Assembly: GCA_002304855.1 (NCBI GenBank)
Contig: DBPJ01000004.1
Location: 37,296 to 93,056 of the forward strand
Direction of reading: 5' to 3'
Source of the DNA: Caryophanales bacterium UBA1423
GTDB taxonomy: Bacteria > Bacillota_I > Bacilli_A > RF39 > UBA660
Length of the DNA: 55,761 nucleotides
Shown: one piece after another, positions 34,881 to 55,761 of the stretch
Position numbering within the stretch: position 1 is the stretch's first letter
Layout: every line of letters begins with the position of its first letter
The notes under the pieces: generated by a model
Told to the model about the DNA's origin: nothing
The model's input: only the letters and a program-made list of their open reading frames with translations
The model's database searches: none
Program-made: the position numbers and the translations under genes

Positions 34881-36458
34881 CTAATTATTTCCCGGGAAAT
34901 AATTTACTTCGATCTCGTTTAATTTTTTTTCTTTATCAATCCTAGCAAATAATATTTGGGGTTGATTGATTTTATCCTTAAATTTATAAGTTGAGAAATC
35001 AGTAAGTGAATCCCAATCATTGCTGGTTGTATTTAATTGTTCTAAAATTTTAGCAGCTGTTGTTGGTAAAAAAGGGTGCAACAATACGGCTCCAAATCTA
35101 ATGGCTTCAGCTAAATTATATATGACAGTTTGTAACTGCGCATTTTGATCTTCGTTTTTAGCCAGTGTCCATGGAGCAGTTTCCTCAATATATTTGTTAG
35201 CACTACTAAATAATTTAAAAATATCATCAAGCGCATCGTTTATTTGGTAATTATTAACTTTTCCCTCAACTTGTTTAGGAAGTTTAATCACTTGTTCAAT
35301 AAATGCTTTATCAATGGCAGTTAATTTATTTTGTTTTGGAATTGCGCCATTAAAATATTGCTTAATCATATTCAAAGTGCGGTTTAATAAATTCCCTAAA
35401 TTATTGACTAATTCTGAATTGGTCCGTTCAATTAGCAACTCATAGGTAATTACACCATCACTATTTATATTAGTTTCGTGGAGAAGATAAAAGCGAATAG
35501 CATCAACATCAAAATGTTTTACTAACTCACTTGCATACATAGCATTACCTTTTGATTTACTCATTTTATCGTTGTTGTTTAATAGCCATGAATGACCTAA
35601 TATTTTTTTAGGCAAAGGCACATTTAATGCCATTAAGATAATTGGCCAATAAATAGCATGAAATCTTACTATATCTTTACCAATCACATGAACATCAACG
35701 GGCCAATATTTATTAAATAATATGCCACTTTCACCATCAGCATTGTAATCTAAAAAAGTAATATAATTGCTTAAAGCATCAATCCAAACATAAATAATAT
35801 GCTTATCATCAAATGAAACAGGTATTCCCCAATTAATAGATGTTCTTGACACACATAGATCTTGTAATCCCGGCTTTAAGAAATTATTAACCATTTCATT
35901 TCTTCTCGATTCAGGATAAATGAAACCTGGATTATCCTCAATATGTTTAATTAATTGCTCAACATATTTATTTAACTTTAAAAAATATGCTTCTTCTCCA
36001 GTTTTGGTTACCGGACGTCCACAATCAGGGCATTTCTCATCAACTAATTGTGATTCAGCAAAAAATGATTCGCATGGCGTGCAATAATGACCTTCATATT
36101 TACCTAAATAAATGTCTCCTTGTTCATATAGTTTTTTAAATATAGCTTGCACTTTTTGTTTGTGTTTAGGATCAGTTGTTCTAATAAAACTATCATAACT
36201 AGGATTTAAGGCATCCCATTCTTCTTTTATCTGTTTAACTATATTATCGACATAATCTTGCGGCTTGAGTCCTTGTTCTTTAGCTTTCATTTCAATTTTT
36301 TGACCATGTTCATCAATACCAGTCTGAAAATAAACATCATATCCTAACAGACGCTTAAATCTAGCAATGGCATCAGCATATATAAGTTCGTAAACATTAC
36401 CAATATGTGGTCGTGAAGATCCATAGACAATAGCCGTTGTAATATAAAATTTATTCAT
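34881..36458 (-). CDS. metG: Methionyl-tRNA synthetase
   Basis: 525-residue class I MetRS. FYITTAIVYGSSRPHIGNVYE at the N terminus (HIGH-type HIGN), the zinc-knuckle pair CTPCESFF and CPDCGRP near residues 126-147, and KMSKSKGNA near residue 299. The C-terminal tRNA-binding EMAPII-like dimerisation domain is absent, giving the short form. Under the T-box with dut, which precedes it by 11 bases. Its last codons (FPGN) contain a perfect Noc-type palindrome. Confidence 0.97.
   Translation of the reverse strand: MNKFYITTAIVYGSSRPHIGNVYELIYADAIARFKRLLGYDVYFQTGIDEHGQKIEMKAKEQGLKPQDYVDNIVKQIKEEWDALNPSYDSFIRTTDPKHKQKVQAIFKKLYEQGDIYLGKYEGHYCTPCESFFAESQLVDEKCPDCGRPVTKTGEEAYFLKLNKYVEQLIKHIEDNPGFIYPESRRNEMVNNFLKPGLQDLCVSRTSINWGIPVSFDDKHIIYVWIDALSNYITFLDYNADGESGILFNKYWPVDVHVIGKDIVRFHAIYWPIILMALNVPLPKKILGHSWLLNNNDKMSKSKGNAMYASELVKHFDVDAIRFYLLHETNINSDGVITYELLIERTNSELVNNLGNLLNRTLNMIKQYFNGAIPKQNKLTAIDKAFIEQVIKLPKQVEGKVNNYQINDALDDIFKLFSSANKYIEETAPWTLAKNEDQNAQLQTVIYNLAEAIRFGAVLLHPFLPTTAAKILEQLNTTSNDWDSLTDFSTYKFKDKINQPQILFARIDKEKKLNEIEVNYFPGNN
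34887..34900. promoter_or_regulatory. Noc-binding site (NBS), exact 14-bp palindrome in the 3' end of metG
   Basis: ATTTCCCGGGAAAT is identical to the Bacillus Noc consensus as I know it. The palindrome extends to 22 bp (34883-34904). CCCGGG is very rare in this AT-rich window. It encodes FPGN at the metG C terminus. Confidence 0.8.
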
Positions 36459-36964: not shown

Positions 36965-37205
36965 TCCATTAAAAAACGTCCTTAAATTAAATTTAAGGAC
37001 GTTAATTCGCGGTACCACCTTAATTCATAATAAATAACTTTATTATGCTCTCTGCATATTTAACGCTATGGGCGTCCTAATTTACATATCAATTAGGCAA
37101 TTCCAGAACCATGTTCAATAACCAGTTATAACTTCTTTTCACCAACCGAAGCTCCCTAATTATAACTTAATTACCTACTCTTTCCTTCATCATCTTTAAA
37201 TTTAT
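36965..37205 (-). promoter_or_regulatory. T-box riboswitch, Met-type, controlling dut-metG
   Basis: The minus strand has the diagnostic T-box sequence GGTGGTACCGCG (36999-37020 region) and upstream Stem I features (AAAGAGTA, GGGAGCTTCGGTTGGTGAAA). A candidate specifier ATG lies at 37110-37112 in GAACATGGTTC. The T-box binds uncharged tRNA-Met and prevents the terminator. Specifier assignment was made by eye, supported by metG downstream. Confidence 0.9.
36971..37003 (-). terminator. T-box terminator hairpin
   Basis: AACGTCCTTAAAT with its complement, then TTTTTT. It overlaps the T-box element, the standard antiterminator/terminator arrangement. Confidence 0.88.
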
Positions 37206-45173: not shown

Positions 45174-45470
45174 TCAAAACAATCCTGGTATATTTCCAAA
45201 TTTGCCCATTTTCTCTTCAATTTCCTTATCAACTTTTTTCATTGCATCGTTAACAGCTACAACAATCATGTCCTCTAGCATTTCAAAATCGTCTTTTTCT
45301 AAATTAAAGTTCCTATCTATTTTAACTCTTACTAGCTCTTTTTTTCCGTTTACTTCAACTTCAATATTAGAATATTTCCCGGGAAATATTTTTTCTTCTA
45401 TTTCTTTTTTAATTTTGAGCATATCTTGTTGTATTTTTTGAGCTTGACGCAACATATTTTGAATATCCAT
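45174..45470 (-). CDS. YbaB/EbfC-family nucleoid-associated protein
   Basis: 98 residues: an N-terminal coiled helix (NMLRQAQKIQQDMLKIKKEI) and a C-terminal dimerisation half (LEDMIVVAVNDAMKKVDKEI), typical of YbaB (YaaK in Bacillus). The beta-core EVEVNGKKELVRVKIDRNF includes VNGKKELVRV. Binds DNA, in some bacteria near replication forks. Between dnaX and recR in the usual order. A Noc-type palindrome lies within its coding sequence (FPGKYS). Confidence 0.93.
   Translation of the reverse strand: MDIQNMLRQAQKIQQDMLKIKKEIEEKIFPGKYSNIEVEVNGKKELVRVKIDRNFNLEKDDFEMLEDMIVVAVNDAMKKVDKEIEEKMGKFGNIPGLF
45374..45387. promoter_or_regulatory. Noc-binding site (NBS), exact palindrome inside the ybaB gene
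   Basis: ATTTCCCGGGAAAT, identical to the site in metG and to the Bacillus Noc consensus. Perfect palindrome of 20 bp (45371-45390). Confidence 0.8.
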
Positions 45471-45483
45471 TATTTTATCACCT

Positions 45484-47097
45484 CTAATTTATTTCAACTA
45501 CATTTTCACCGAATAAGCCAATTGTCATTTTTAAGAAATCGTCTGATGCGGCACCAGTCAATTCTTCAATATCATTAATTTCTGGTTCATCTATTTTCTG
45601 ATATCCTTCACCGGTCTTCTTTTTTTGTATATATTCTTTTTTTATTTTTTCCCACTCTTCTTCGGTAGTAGCAATTAATTTTAATGGGAGATTAAAGACC
45701 TTTTCTATTGCTCTTTCAATTTTCTTTAAATTTTTATTTATTCTGTCAGCCATTGCGTTATATTTAAAAGCAATTAAAATACTACTTTCGCTGGCAGCTT
45801 TTAGATCTGAATCAACCAACATACCAATAATTGGGCCATAATCTTCATCAACAGTATGCGCTTTAATGTTATCCCATATCTCTTTATATTCTTTCAATTT
45901 TTTCTTATCAGCATCAACCAAAATATTATTGATTCTTATTTTTTTAATTTTCTCAAATTTTAACTTCATTTTATCGTCCTGATCAATACTACTATGACTA
46001 ATCATCGGCCTTTCCGTATTGCCGCTAAAATTTAAACCTAACAATGATGCTTCAAAAATAATTTTAGGATTATTAGCAATTTTCATATCATTAAAGGTAA
46101 AGTTGAATCTCTTAATTAAATTATATATATCGACTTCACTAATATTTAAATTAATTTGACTATAAAACTCAAATAATTCTTTATCAACTTGAAAATAATT
46201 AGGAGCTTTCATATAAATAAGGAAATCTCTTAAAAAAAACATTAAACCTTCAATTATTTTGAACAAATCTTTACCATTATTATCAAATTCATCAACTAAT
46301 TCCAATATGCCAGTCGCATCATTGAATATTATTTTTTCTAAAAACTTCAACATTTGTTCTCTCGTTATAGTACCATTCAACGAATAAACGTCATCAATAG
46401 CTATACTGTTATTGGTATATGATACTAGTTTATCTAATATCACTTCAGCATCTCTAAATGAGCCATCAGCCAATCGAGCAATTTCTTCAATGGCGGTATT
46501 ATCAATATTTATTTTTTCAGCTGTAACCATTTTTTGTAGCTTTTTAACCATCATTTTTCTATCAATCTTTTTGAAATCAAAACGTTGACATCTAGAAATT
46601 ATCGTCAATGGTACTTTATGTGCCTCTGTCGTTGCCAATATAAAAATTACATGTGCTGGCGGTTCCTCAAGCGTCTTTAATAAAGCATTGAAAGCTCCGG
46701 TCGATAACATATGAACCTCATCTACAATGTAAACTTTATACTTGCAATCACTTGGCACTATATTCACTTTACTTCTAATTTCTCTAATCTCATCAACCCC
46801 ATTATTTGAAGCGGCATCTATTTCAATAATATCCGGCGTTGCTCTGTTAGCTATTAGTTTACAATTATTACATTTATTACAAGCATAGCCATTTTTGGGC
46901 TTTTCACAATTAATAGCCTGAGCTAATATTTTAGCTACGCTCGTCTTCCCGGTGCCACGTGGTCCACAAAACAAATATGCGTGTGAAATTTTATTTTCTA
47001 TTACCGCATTTTTCAAGGTTTTTATAATAAAATCTTGGCCTAAAACATCATCAAAGGTGTAAGGCCTATACTTGCGATATAATACTTGATATTCCAT
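45484..47097 (-). CDS. dnaX: DNA polymerase III subunit gamma/tau
   Basis: 537 residues. AAA+ clamp loader with Walker A LFCGPRGTGKTSVAKILAQA (residues ~42-61), a four-Cys zinc module (CEKPKNGYACNKCNNCKL) and the DEVHMLS motif. Domain III and a shorter C-terminal tau domain, which should bind DnaB and PolC, follow. I see no clear programmed frameshift motif giving a separate gamma. Between the SRP RNA/tadA and ybaB, as in Bacillus. Confidence 0.96.
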   Translation of the reverse strand: MEYQVLYRKYRPYTFDDVLGQDFIIKTLKNAVIENKISHAYLFCGPRGTGKTSVAKILAQAINCEKPKNGYACNKCNNCKLIANRATPDIIEIDAASNNGVDEIREIRSKVNIVPSDCKYKVYIVDEVHMLSTGAFNALLKTLEEPPAHVIFILATTEAHKVPLTIISRCQRFDFKKIDRKMMVKKLQKMVTAEKINIDNTAIEEIARLADGSFRDAEVILDKLVSYTNNSIAIDDVYSLNGTITREQMLKFLEKIIFNDATGILELVDEFDNNGKDLFKIIEGLMFFLRDFLIYMKAPNYFQVDKELFEFYSQINLNISEVDIYNLIKRFNFTFNDMKIANNPKIIFEASLLGLNFSGNTERPMISHSSIDQDDKMKLKFEKIKKIRINNILVDADKKKLKEYKEIWDNIKAHTVDEDYGPIIGMLVDSDLKAASESSILIAFKYNAMADRINKNLKKIERAIEKVFNLPLKLIATTEEEWEKIKKEYIQKKKTGEGYQKIDEPEINDIEELTGAASDDFLKMTIGLFGENVVEIN

Positions 47098-47156: not shown

Positions 47157-47195
47157 AAAAAAAGAAAGTTATAGGTATTTATTTTCTTTTTTTTC
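47157..47195 (-). terminator. Possible intrinsic terminator after tadA
   Basis: AAAGAAA / TTTCTTT stem separated by 13-14 bases, followed by eight T's on the minus strand. AT-only stem, so weaker. Confidence 0.5.
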
Positions 47196-47607
47196 TAAAA
47201 AAATTCTTAATCAAATTTTCGCTCACAAGACTCATTTTTTCATCTTTAAATTTTGTAATTTTTATTACACTTTTTTCCTTAATTTCGCCTTTTTCATCTG
47301 CTAAATATCTCACTTCACTGATCCTTGCTTCTTTTATGGCATTCATACACATATCACAAGGTTTTAATGTAACATACATAATCGATCCATTTAATCGCCA
47401 ATCTTTTATTTTCTTTGAGGCTTTTTCAATTGCTAAAATCTCAGCATGATATGTTGCTACTTTCTTTTTTTCTTTTTTATTATATGCCCTAGCTATTATT
47501 TTATCATCCTTAACAATTATTGCTCCGATCGGTACTTCGCCTTCTTTATATGCTTTTTTAGCTAACCGCATTATTTCATCAATATACTTTTTTCCACTTT
47601 CTAACAT
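47179..47607 (-). CDS. tadA: tRNA-specific adenosine deaminase TadA
   Basis: 142 residues from the ATG at 47607, with GGTGATAATAATT upstream. Zinc-dependent CDA fold: HAEILAIEKAS (catalytic Glu) and KPCDMCMNAI supply the His/Cys/Cys ligands. Deaminates A34 to inosine in tRNA-Arg. The GTG at 47619 lies inside the ribosome site and is rejected. Adjacent to the SRP RNA gene, as in Bacillus. Confidence 0.94.
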   Translation of the reverse strand: MLESGKKYIDEIMRLAKKAYKEGEVPIGAIIVKDDKIIARAYNKKEKKKVATYHAEILAIEKASKKIKDWRLNGSIMYVTLKPCDMCMNAIKEARISEVRYLADEKGEIKEKSVIKITKFKDEKMSLVSENLIKNFFRKKRK

Positions 47608-47645
47608 AATTATTATCACCTATTATTGTATTCTTTATATAAAAA

Positions 47646-47718
47646 GGGCACACATTAGTAGAGGCTGTTAAGGCTGCTATCTTTCAATCCTGACCTATTC
47701 CAACATACTAATTGTGCC
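47646..47718 (-). ncRNA. ffs: Signal recognition particle RNA (small, 4.5S-type)
   Basis: The minus strand carries the SRP core loop: GGTCAGG, ATTGAAAGATAGCAGCC (the conserved GGUCAGG...AGCAGCC with a GAAA-type apical loop). The ends pair (GGCACA...TGTGCC, and TTAGTA/TACTAA), and CCCTTTTT terminates it. About 73 nt, far shorter than the Bacillus scRNA (~270 nt) and lacking an Alu domain. Positioned between tadA and gyrA. Confidence 0.92.
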
Positions 47719-47768
47719 TATTAAAGATATTAATATATATTTTTATAAAAAGCAAGCAAAATTTTTTA

Positions 47769-47784
47769 TGTTTCACGTGGAACA
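47769..47784. promoter_or_regulatory. parS site 1 (ParB-binding)
   Basis: TGTTTCACGTGGAACA. It matches the Bacillus parS consensus (TGTTYCACGTGRAACA), with a C/T asymmetry between arms. Confidence 0.9.
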
Positions 47785-47807
47785 TCAATCATGTTTAACC
47801 AAATAAA

Positions 47808-47823
47808 TGTTTCACGTGAAACA
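47808..47823. promoter_or_regulatory. parS site 2 (ParB-binding)
   Basis: TGTTTCACGTGAAACA, a perfect 16-bp palindrome matching the universal parS consensus. Confidence 0.92.
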
Positions 47824-47834
47824 TTATTTTTTTA

Positions 47835-47866
47835 AAACATCATGTTCCACGTGGAACATGATGTTT
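47835..47866. promoter_or_regulatory. parS site 3 within a 32-bp perfect palindrome, just past the gyrA stop
   Basis: The core TGTTCCACGTGGAACA (47843-47858) is parS. The symmetry runs on without mismatch for eight bases on each side. In RNA this would fold into a long stem right after the gyrA stop codon and could act as a terminator hairpin, but it is followed by only a short T-tract before AAAAAAA. Confidence 0.88.
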
Positions 47867-47868
47867 CG

Positions 47869-50286
47869 TTATTTTACATTATCAACTATGGCAACAGAAG
47901 TTACAAACTGTTCATCCCTTAATGATATTAATCTTACACCTTGAGTAGCACGTCCCATAGTAGAAACCTGTGCTACCGGTATTCTAATAACTGTACCACT
48001 ATCAGTGATAATCATAAGATCCTCGTCGCCATTAACTGCTTTAAATGCAACTATTTTGCCATTTTTCTCAGTAATATTCACCGTTTTAACCCCTTTGCTG
48101 CCTCGGTGGGTTAAACGATATTCATCAATAGGTGTTTTCTTGCCATATCCCCTTTCAGTAACTATTAATACTTGTTGATCAATGTTAACAAGTTCAGCTC
48201 CCACACAAATATTACTTGTTAATTCCATTCCTTTTACACCACTTGCTGTACGGCCCATTGGTCGAACATCTTTTTCATTAAATCTTGCCATACGACCATC
48301 ATTAGTTGCAATGATAATTTCATTATTACCGGTTGTTTTCTTTACTGAAATTAGTTCGTCGTTTTGACGAAGAGTTATTGCTATTTTTCCGGTGGTTCTA
48401 ATATTTTCAAATTCCTCGAGAGTGGTTCTCTTCACAATACCTAATTTAGTTGTAAAGAATAAGTATTTACTTTTCTCATCACCATCAATTTTTATTATTG
48501 AGTTAACATATTCTCCTTTTTCTAAAGGTAGTAAGTTAACTATTGGCAAACCTTTCGCGTGCCTACCATATTCAGGTATTCCATAGCCTTTTAATCTATA
48601 TACTTTTCCTTTATTAGTGAAAAACATTAAATAACTATGTGTTAACGCGGTAATCAAGTGTTCAGCAAAATCTTCTTCATTGGTTGTAATCCCCTTGACG
48701 CCAACACCGCCTCTATTTTGGGTTCTATATGTATCAATTAATTGACGCTTAATATAACCTTTGTTAGTAATTGTAATAATTACCTCTTCGACCGGTATTA
48801 ATGATTCATCTTCAATTTGATCAATAGTAGTCAAATCAATTTCGGTGCGGCGTTCATCACCATATTTTTCTTTTATTTCCAACAATTCGTTCTTAATGAC
48901 TTCTAAGATTTTTTCTTCACTATTTAAAATTTCCGTCAATTCATCTATTAATTTTAATAATTGTGACATTTCATCTTCAATTTTTTCGCGCTCTAATCCA
49001 GTCAATCTTCTTAATCTCATTTCTAAGATTGCCTTTGATTGTGCTTCTGTTAAATTAAATGCCTCCATTAAATTTTTAGTAGCTATTTCGTCCGATTTTG
49101 ATTTTTTAATTAATTTAACTATCTCATCAATATTTTCTAACGCTATTTTTAATCCTTCTAAAATATGAACGCGGTTTTCGGCTCTTTCTAAATCAAATTT
49201 TGTTTTTCTAAAGATTATATTTTTTTGATGATCTAAATAATAAACTAGCATTTCTTTCAAGGTTAAGGTCCTTGGTTGTCCATCGACTAATGCCAATAAA
49301 TTAACTCCATATGATGTTTGCAATGCTGTTTGTTTATATAAATTATTTAATATCACATTAGCATTTGCATCTTTTTTTAACTCAATGACAATTCTTATTC
49401 CTTCGCGATTAGTTTCATCACGTAAATCTGATATTCCTTCAATTTGCTTTTCCCGAACTAACTCAGCAATTTTTTCAATTAAGCGAGCTTTATTTATTTG
49501 ATATGGAATTTCAGTCACAATAATTGATTGTTTGCCACTTTTATCTGTTTCAATTATAGCTTTTGATCTAATGGTTATAATACCATGACCGGTGTTATAT
49601 GCATTTCTAATGCCACTCATCCCTAAGATAATTGCTCCAGTAGGAAAATCTGGTCCTTTTATTATTTCCATCAAATCATTGACTGTAGCATCCGGATTAT
49701 CAATTAAATATATTATGCCATCAATTACCTCATTCAGATTGTGTGGTGGGATATTTGTCGCCATACCAACCGCTATACCAGTTGTACCATTTACTAATAA
49801 ATTAGGAAAGCGGCTTGGTAAAACGACCGGCTCCTTTTCACTACCATCAAAATTATCAACAAAATCAACTGTCTCTTTATTAATATCTCTTAATAGTTCG
49901 GTTGATATTTTTGTCATTCTTACTTCGGTATAACGCATAGCTGCAGCACTATCACCATCAATTGAACCAAAGTTACCATGACCATCAACCAATAAATATC
50001 TAAATGAAAAGTCTTGGGCCATTCTTACCATTGTGTCATACAAAGCCACATCACCGTGTGGATGGTATTTACCTAAAACCTCACCAACAACACGAACACT
50101 TTTCTTATGTGGCTTGTCAGGCGTATTACCTAATTCATCCATTGCATATAAAATACGTCGATGAACCGGTTTTAATCCATCTCTTACATCTGGTAAAGCT
50201 CTTTGGACTATGACGCTCATCGCATAATCAAGAAAGGACTTTTCCATTTCTTTCGATATATTTACACTAGTTAAAGTTTCTGCCAT
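47869..50286 (-). CDS. gyrA: DNA gyrase subunit A
   Basis: 805 residues from ATG at 50286, behind [32 protein letters not shown] is the N-terminal signature. [18 protein letters not shown] has the quinolone-pocket Asp, and [12 protein letters not shown] contains the catalytic Tyr (~Y121). The C-terminal beta-pinwheel has the gyrase box ([10 protein letters not shown] near residue 530). Typical gyrA rather than parC. The gyrB stop lies 10 bases upstream. Confidence 0.98.
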
Positions 50287-50296
50287 AAAATCACTC

Positions 50297-53324
<3,028 letters not shown>

Positions 53325-53428: not shown

Positions 53429-53463
53429 AAATAAAAGATTACTTATAAATATATAAGTAATCT
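53429..53463 (-). terminator. Intrinsic terminator after comK
   Basis: AGATTACTTATA with its complement, followed by TTTTATTTTT on the minus strand. It includes the stop codon. Confidence 0.85.
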
Positions 53464-53909
53464 CTCAATTCTTTTCTTTTGCGTAAAACAGATTCTAACC
53501 TCGCTGCTCTTAAAATTTGATTGTCTAATGAGCCATATGATATATCTAATTCTAATTTATAACCGGTATTAAATAAAATGATTGATTTATCAATACCTTT
53601 ATAATATTTTTCAATGTTTCCTAAAGATATCCAACAGCACTCATAGACAAGTGGCGAAGTAGTAGGAAAAAATATAATTTCTTTTGATTCCTCAATAATA
53701 ATTGGTGCTTTATGAGTAACTCCTATCAACTTCTTTGTTCCTACTTTTCTGCCAGCAAAAGAACTACCAAAATATTGACAACTATTATCTATTATTTCAT
53801 ATGGTGTTTGATTGACTATTAATTCTTTTTCTTTTTCAACTATTTTAGATCTATAATTATCAATTGGTAGAATTGCCAGAGTTTCCTCATTGATTTCATA
53901 AAAATTCAT
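53439..53909 (-). CDS. comK: ComK-family competence transcription factor
   Basis: 156 residues. Segments line up with Bacillus ComK as I recall it: YEINEETLAILP at the start, CQYFGSSFAGRKVGT (residues 44-58), THKAPIIIE, FPTTSP (81-86), CCWIS (91-95), ISYGSLDNQILRAARLES (123-140). The protein ends RDYLYIYK, about where Bacillus ComK carries the FMLYPK MecA-binding motif, and lacks the ~20 residues after it. A terminator on each side suggests a monocistronic gene. It lies between dnaN and recF, not its usual place. ATG preceded by GGGGGTGAAAAT. Confidence 0.85.
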   Translation of the reverse strand: MNFYEINEETLAILPIDNYRSKIVEKEKELIVNQTPYEIIDNSCQYFGSSFAGRKVGTKKLIGVTHKAPIIIEESKEIIFFPTTSPLVYECCWISLGNIEKYYKGIDKSIILFNTGYKLELDISYGSLDNQILRAARLESVLRKRKELRDYLYIYK

Positions 53910-55314: not shown

Positions 55315-55761
55315 TTAAGAACATTCTTTTTTTAGTGTTTCAATTACTTTACGTAATTCTTCGCTGCTTTTTAAAATTTTATTTATTTTTTCATAGGCGT
55401 GAATAACTGTTGAATGATCTCGGCCACCAAATTCTAAGCCAATTCGTGGATATGATTCATCAGTTAATATTCTAGCTAAATACATTGCTACTTGACGGGG
55501 TAGGGTAATTGAAGAATGTCTTCTTGCTGATTTCAAATCTTCAAAATTAATGCCATAGTGGTTGGCTACAATTCGTTGGATCCGTTGAATGTTATTTTTA
55601 CCACTAACATTTTTTATTAAATAATCTTTTAGAGCTTCAATAACTAATTCCATATTTATTTCACTACTATTCATTATAGCAGAATAAGCATACAATCTTG
55701 TTACCGCACCTTCCAATTGTCTTACATCAGATTCACAATTATTAGCAATATATTCTAAAAC
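55315..55761 (-). CDS. dnaA: Chromosomal replication initiator DnaA, C-terminal part (5' cut by the window)
   Basis: The open frame continues to the window edge, giving the last 148 residues. VLEYIANNCESDVRQLEGAV starts in the AAA+ lid. Domain IV carries the DnaA-box-recognition signature SARRHSSITLPRQVAMYLAR and GRDHSTVIHAYEKI. The window edge removes the start, domains I-II and the Walker motifs. Confidence 0.97.
   Translation of the reverse strand, partial: VLEYIANNCESDVRQLEGAVTRLYAYSAIMNSSEINMELVIEALKDYLIKNVSGKNNIQRIQRIVANHYGINFEDLKSARRHSSITLPRQVAMYLARILTDESYPRIGLEFGGRDHSTVIHAYEKINKILKSSEELRKVIETLKKECS

Follow-up and report, generated by a model that had tools for sequence, protein, structure and literature searches.

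Behind gyrA, the window (the whole stretch of 55,761 nucleotides analysed here) carries three parS sites in the spacer that separates this gene from the SRP RNA gene ffs. The sites, the Noc-binding sites (NBS) and the genes around them are given below by position, the palindromic elements without a strand.

34881..36458, minus strand: metG (Pfam PF09334, PF19303)
34886..34901, no strand: NBS palindrome TATTTCCCGGGAAATA at the metG 3' end, 12.9 kb from the triplet
45174..45470, minus strand: ybaB/ebfC (Pfam PF02575)
45373..45388, no strand: NBS palindrome TATTTCCCGGGAAATA inside the ybaB frame, 2.4 kb from the triplet
45484..47097, minus strand: dnaX (Pfam PF13177, PF22608)
47179..47619, minus strand: tadA-type deaminase, next after ffs (Pfam PF14437, PF00383; synteny in G098)
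47637..47725, minus strand: SRP RNA gene, ffs (Rfam RF00169, 44.9 bits, above the gathering score)
47769..47784, no strand: parS 1, TGTTTCACGTGGAACA, one asymmetric base pair, exact consensus match
47808..47823, no strand: parS 2, TGTTTCACGTGAAACA, perfect palindrome, exact consensus match
47835..47866, no strand: perfect 32-bp palindrome round parS 3, two bases past the gyrA stop, possible gyrA terminator hairpin
47843..47858, no strand: parS 3, TGTTCCACGTGGAACA, perfect palindrome, exact consensus match
47869..50304, minus strand: gyrA (Pfam PF00521, PF03989)
55315..55761, minus strand: 3' part of dnaA (Pfam PF08299 for 55315-55713)

The setting agrees with the original prediction, which had placed the cluster in the gyrA-ffs spacer about 8 kb from dnaA: gyrA (47869-50304) and the SRP RNA gene (47637-47725) flank the triplet, and the dnaA 3' end at 55315 is 7.5 kb away. 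The other neighbours identified by Pfam are gyrB, a RecF-like protein, ComK and dnaN, which gives the order gyrA-gyrB-recF-(comK)-dnaN-dnaA beside the triplet and a position near the origin. The contig ends 166 bases past the window, inside dnaA. Between positions 1 and 54000, all 27 bins show a negative GC skew, which fits an origin past the right end of the window. On the other side, the order gyrA-parS-ffs-tadA-dnaX-ybaB-recR is also present in a genome of the same genus. Two further features of the region are a ComK homologue between recF and dnaN (53439-53909; PF06338, E 4e-45), with 78% identity in the same-genus genome, and a T-box leader (36992-37199, minus strand), which precedes a 182-aa frame and metG.

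In the scan of the window, all three sites are exact to the consensus TGTTYCACGTGRAACA, and the description of two perfect palindromes and one with an asymmetric base was borne out. The sites are spaced by 39 and 35 bp, and site 3, which is nearest to gyrA, forms the centre of the perfect 32-bp palindrome at 47835-47866. No parS beyond these three was detected in the window at up to three mismatches, a threshold at which shuffled sequences average 0.48 sites and 2 of 100 reach three. As to whether this is the only cluster, a point that had been left to a genome scan, the triplet comprises the only parS sites of the assembly at up to two mismatches (one hit for the reversed-pattern control), while the missing third of this 67.8%-complete assembly could hold further ones.

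The same place is used throughout the family, a pattern that, like the Noc-binding sites, was not part of the original prediction. A gyrA protein query matched 98 of 98 family genomes; six gave only a weaker ParC-type match and two had a cut gyrA, and from the remaining 90 genomes we read 91 regions behind gyrA. Of these regions, 86 carry the parS core GTTYCACGTGRAAC, corresponding to 85 of the 90 genomes, each of a different genus. Among the five regions without it, G034 carries nine copies of the variant TGTTACACGTGTAACA, two comprise no more than 11 and 132 bp, and the only matches in G032 and G092 are poorer ones. For the canonical site (TGTTNCACGTGNAACA), 203 of 207 genome-wide matches lie behind gyrA, often in tandem arrays, a count restricted to the 60 genomes in which the reading extended over 1,390 bp or more; the 31 shorter regions (mostly contig ends) were excluded, and several of the genomes concerned, among them G001, G003, G006, G012, G015, G081 and G087, carry further sites on other, unplaced contigs. 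Within the 60 genomes, 54 have canonical matches, and in 51 of them every match is behind gyrA. The exceptions are G020, whose fifth site is in the last gyrA codons, and G014 and G066, whose regions were read for only 1.4 kb. In eight genomes scanned whole, none of the 38 cores was found outside the last gyrA codons and the roughly 2 kb that follow the gene. The canonical site had no match in 18 of the 98 genomes; 12 of these were readable behind gyrA, where nine retain the core with altered end letters, G032 and G092 have altered cores only and G078, of which 132 bp were read, contains no match. Twelve further family genomes gave sites behind gyrA in nine cases, the misses being G101 with no sequence left, G102 with 372 bp containing three NBS, and G122 with none. 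In a control set from other families of the class, 3 of 24 regions had a single site and none a cluster; the set represents the 24 best-scoring out of 54 such genomes, with regions of 1.27-1.47 kb each and one of only 279 bp.

Within the sequence read, the arrays comprise between 1 and 12 sites, and G030 carries ten sites, one per 37-38 bp. The cores of G098 are found at the ends of two contigs, each of which begins with the same parS; one of them carries gyrA, the other carries ffs, tadA and dnaX. L348 and L349 (both G098) have this parS core at position 1, and in several family genomes a contig breaks off within the array or close to it; assemblies of this family probably underrepresent the centromere. 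The arrays also show peculiarities of their own. A parS core within the last gyrA codons, read as VSRET or VPRET, occurs in L286 (G098), L299 (G100), L300 (G107) and L302 (G020). Some arrays consist of a single parS variant: TGTTACACGTGTAACA in G034 (L255), T as the last base in G063 (L213), G067 (L188) and G075 (L174), and A as the first base throughout in G004 (L218) and G080 (L249). Such array-wide variants suggest concerted evolution and perhaps shifts in ParB specificity. About 54 bp behind gyrA, G092 (L247) has a 46-bp perfect palindrome around TATTTCACGTGAAATA, which is neither a canonical parS nor an NBS.

The protein that should bind these sites was not found in the assembly itself. 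The original prediction had named the absence of ParB as evidence against it, and formally this is what we see, as HTH_ParB had no match in the 67.8%-complete assembly, hence neither ParB nor Noc was found; however, the contig stops before the positions at which the paralogues of the same-genus genome are encoded. There, two HTH_ParB paralogues are located on the gyrA contig, at distances of 13.1 and 15.2 kb to the start of gyrA; the first has Noc residues, and the second was assigned as ParB from its 298-residue frame. Since the contig analysed here ends 5.6 kb from the gyrA start, it is most likely that ParB is missing due to truncation of the contig. For 14 genomes picked by hand, all with gyrA and the two paralogues on a single contig, the distance to gyrA is 13.1-19.4 kb for Noc and 15.1-62.2 kb for ParB, and in at least eight other family genomes ParB is on the far side of gyrA. 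As regards a ParA partner, L273 has a 265-aa frame between Noc and ParB.

A chance or relic cluster to which no ParB binds, in a lineage that has lost the protein, would also account for the failed HTH_ParB search. Yet ParB-type proteins are found in 97 of 98 family genomes, the sole exception being this incomplete assembly, and in the same genus, and the core is likewise placed in 85 of 90 genomes. Moreover, an exact site is expected with 6.4e-10 per position, so that even a single one would be expected only about 0.0003 times in the 408,231-bp assembly (by arithmetic at 30% GC). We therefore reject a loss of ParB and regard such a relic as extremely improbable.

Besides their mere presence, the proteins of the relatives fit the two types of sites. 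Caulobacter positions 173, 179 and 201 have been described as specificity residues, with Q, K and R in Noc (PMC7383237). The parsed ParBs of relatives have R at position 173 in 10 of 10 and G at position 201 in 9 of 10 cases; the ParB of G098 was missed by the motif filter. Q and K (173, 179) are found in 12 of 12 parsed Nocs and R (201) in 11 of 12, where L275 has H instead, and for one relative's Noc-like protein the three closest solved chains are Noc. These Nocs comprise 362-525 residues, and 16-29 residues precede the NRFQP/NRYQP motif in 12 of 12, whereas this leader measures about 38-40 residues in 7nfu and 7ol9, two solved chains of Noc. An N-terminal, membrane-binding amphipathic helix has been described for Noc (PMC8429893). 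The short leader would leave little room for it, and this length argument, which considers the N-terminus alone, speaks against an N-terminal helix in the Nocs of the family.

Because three exact sites, unique in the assembly, occupy the near-universal parS place of the family, we interpret the triplet as very probably the chromosomal centromere of this bacterium, and probably its only one, in the form of a compact ParABS parS array on the origin side. The specificity residues of the relatives' ParBs are in line with this, as is ScpA, which was found in this assembly and in five of five others tried, and the near-origin centromere that the original prediction had proposed is thereby supported. 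By analogy with known ParABS systems, ParB dimers would nucleate on each site, bind CTP and close into clamps, which would slide out over gyrA and over the ffs-tadA-dnaX side. One large partition complex would form, to be moved by ParA and to recruit SMC-ScpAB. Due to the short spacing, several loaders could supply one patch of DNA.

Noc probably acts in the same region as the parS array, because both NBS of the assembly are on the same side of the triplet at 2.4 and 12.9 kb and there are relatives with NBS within the array. These two are the only exact NBS 16-mers in the assembly, and both are in the window; the one at the metG end is common to both same-genus genomes. Two positions of the palindrome TATTTCCCGGGAAATA, 1 and 6, deviate from the parS core, and these are the positions at which NBS has been reported to differ from parS (A1 and C6 recognised; PMC7383237). 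The palindrome is present in 78 of 98 family genomes, with 0-8 exact sites per genome and 20 in G022. The NBS core TTTCCCGGGAAA is found behind gyrA in 48 of 91 regions, and 22 regions have at least two sites of each type. Here, parS (P) and NBS (N) can alternate, with orders including NPNPNP (G004, with a unit of 66 bp), PNPNPNPN (G054) and NPNPNPNP (G059); G022 has 12 of each with one slip, and the mixing is loose in other regions. NBS spread over the origin-proximal chromosome were not found in the 13 genomes scanned: 12 of them have the NBS 14-mer, and in 10 all copies are within 7.3 kb behind gyrA on the same contig. The remaining placements concern G098, with NBS on the contig onto which its array extends, and G054, with two of six on an unplaced contig. 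The NBS inside ybaB could not be established as a conserved spot, as among the family regions such a site occurs only in G029 and the first NBS of the same-genus genome is at another place, in a comparison in which many family regions end before ybaB.

The palindrome directly behind the gyrA stop raises the possibility that parS 3 has a second task. Read on the gyrA strand, the palindrome RNA folds with -21.2 kcal/mol (z -6.7), so that the hairpin may additionally stop gyrA transcription. Across the family, sites up to 25 bp from the gyrA stop have a gyrA-strand T-run of at least five in 10 of 28 cases versus 22 of 287 (p = 1e-4). Such a T-run combined with a stem extended by five or more occurs in 7 of 28 versus 8 of 287 (p = 8e-5); these statistics cover 315 of 320 sites (five near region ends were dropped), and the kinship of the genomes inflates the p-values. 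At the other sites, T-runs of at least five are biased towards the opposite strand (58 of 287, gyrA strand 22 of 287). A stem extension as a general rule for the first parS was rejected, since the mean is 3.2 versus 2.8 for the others and a difference is confined to sites no more than 25 bp from the stop. The statistics favour a role as gyrA terminators for some stop-adjacent sites of the family. For parS 3 itself, a dual function as centromere site and gyrA terminator is a possibility that we consider rather doubtful: the T-run in the window consists of four T followed by A, the terminator consensus scan flagged the palindrome for the opposite strand only and not for the gyrA strand, and 20 of the 28 stop-adjacent sites have no stem extension of five plus T-run of four.

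One could go further and assume that transcription is the main function of the cluster, with the parS 3 hairpin ending gyrA, ParB on parS 1 tuning the ffs promoter and the centromere being secondary. The position of parS 1, about 44 bp upstream of the 5' end of the ffs RNA, would suit this, as would the fold of the palindrome two bases past the stop and the T-run and stem statistics. Nevertheless, the weak T-tract, the terminator call on the opposite strand and the 20 stop-adjacent sites that do without these features apply here as well, and termination does not need arrays of up to 12 sites. We consider this version very unlikely and retain the centromere as the main function of the triplet.

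Combining these observations, we consider as a speculative model, more likely wrong than right, that the chromosome of this family has one compound centromere. In it, ParB and Noc, which form separate systems elsewhere, would act side by side on interleaved units behind gyrA, a helix-less Noc with a long linker would serve as a second clamp and not as a chromosome-wide membrane tether, and the gyrA-adjacent parS would end transcription; the window would represent a simple form with three parS and two nearby NBS. The triplet alone is ordinary, and what is new is a single-place centromere with interleaved Noc sites. Judged from titles and the beginnings of abstracts, no report of interleaved parS and NBS or of parS as a terminator was present among the open-licence matches listed, and ParB and Noc are absent from the main text of PMC10868615, a paper on orders such as RF39.

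How ordinary the triplet is becomes clear from other phyla. The original prediction held that parS sites are usually more spread out than in this dense array. This stands insofar as parS clusters within 5-40 kb have been described as usual (PMC8357415), but equally dense triplets (three sites with gaps of 5-35 bp) are common, with at least 119 stretches from many phyla, and the idea that dense clusters are exceptional was dropped. Among the matches listed, gyrA is present in 14 of these at least 119 loci. In 13 of them the triplet is nearby, and these are named as Bacilli, Tenericutes or Mollicutes; in the remaining one, a Clostridia contig, it lies about 5.8 kb from gyrA. In the at least 119 loci (L054-L172), 17 of 301 spacings within the allowed range of 21-51 bp are shorter than 35 bp, with a mode of 39, in a sample that covers this range only and in which tandem copies are non-independent; when each locus contributes a single spacing, 14 of 119 are at 35 bp or less among the matches listed. 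The 35-bp spacing of the window is thus at the lower edge of the cross-phyla spacings. This edge is not absolute, as spacings of 28-34 bp occur in this family. A sharp lower edge near 35 bp from centre to centre suggests a steric rule, a candidate that is measurable.

In this context, the variation in parS number and clustering has been listed as an open question in a review on ParABS (PMC7333895). This family of small genomes provides a natural series to address it, since 85 of 90 genomes, each from a different genus, have parS at a single place and the arrays read comprise between 1 and 12 sites. Most of its named relatives are recorded as Bacilli, a group cited for scattered parS. The interleaved parS-NBS units additionally offer a direct test of cooperation versus exclusion between ParB and Noc clamps.

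Of the systems that can be compared, Bacillus subtilis has parS sites (bound by Spo0J) with the same consensus as those described here, and the F plasmid uses a different type of ParB. A close counterpart to a compact chromosomal array is that of Myxococcus xanthus, where 22 repeats in about 3 kb are bound by ParB in vitro (PMC3899335). In that organism the array is about 4 kb upstream of parA (PMC3899335), whereas here it lies behind gyrA with NBS in the same region, and ParB of the same-genus genome is encoded about 15 kb off, past dnaN. The F plasmid parS_F (sopC) likewise consists of tandem 16-bp inverted repeats with a spacing of about 40 bp, in 12 repeats of 43 bp (PMC6238139), and differs in belonging to a plasmid with its own partition system. 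This likeness could point to a foreign partition locus from a plasmid or phage inserted at gyrA, but the identified neighbours are housekeeping genes and the order from gyrA to recR is kept in the same-genus genome, which leaves practically no probability for such an origin of the triplet. As in the family studied here, B. subtilis possesses paralogous ParB and Noc, with NBS told apart by A1 and C6 (PMC7383237). Bacilli are described as one of the few lineages with scattered parS (PMC8357415), whereas parS and NBS mostly share one region here and can alternate. In Staphylococcus aureus, the NBS core is identical to that of B. subtilis, with an origin-proximal bias and a link of Noc to replication control, and all but one of 41 Noc loci are spread up to 700 kb to either side of the origin (PMC5540599), in contrast to the 0-8 sites per genome, or 20 in G022, of the present family.
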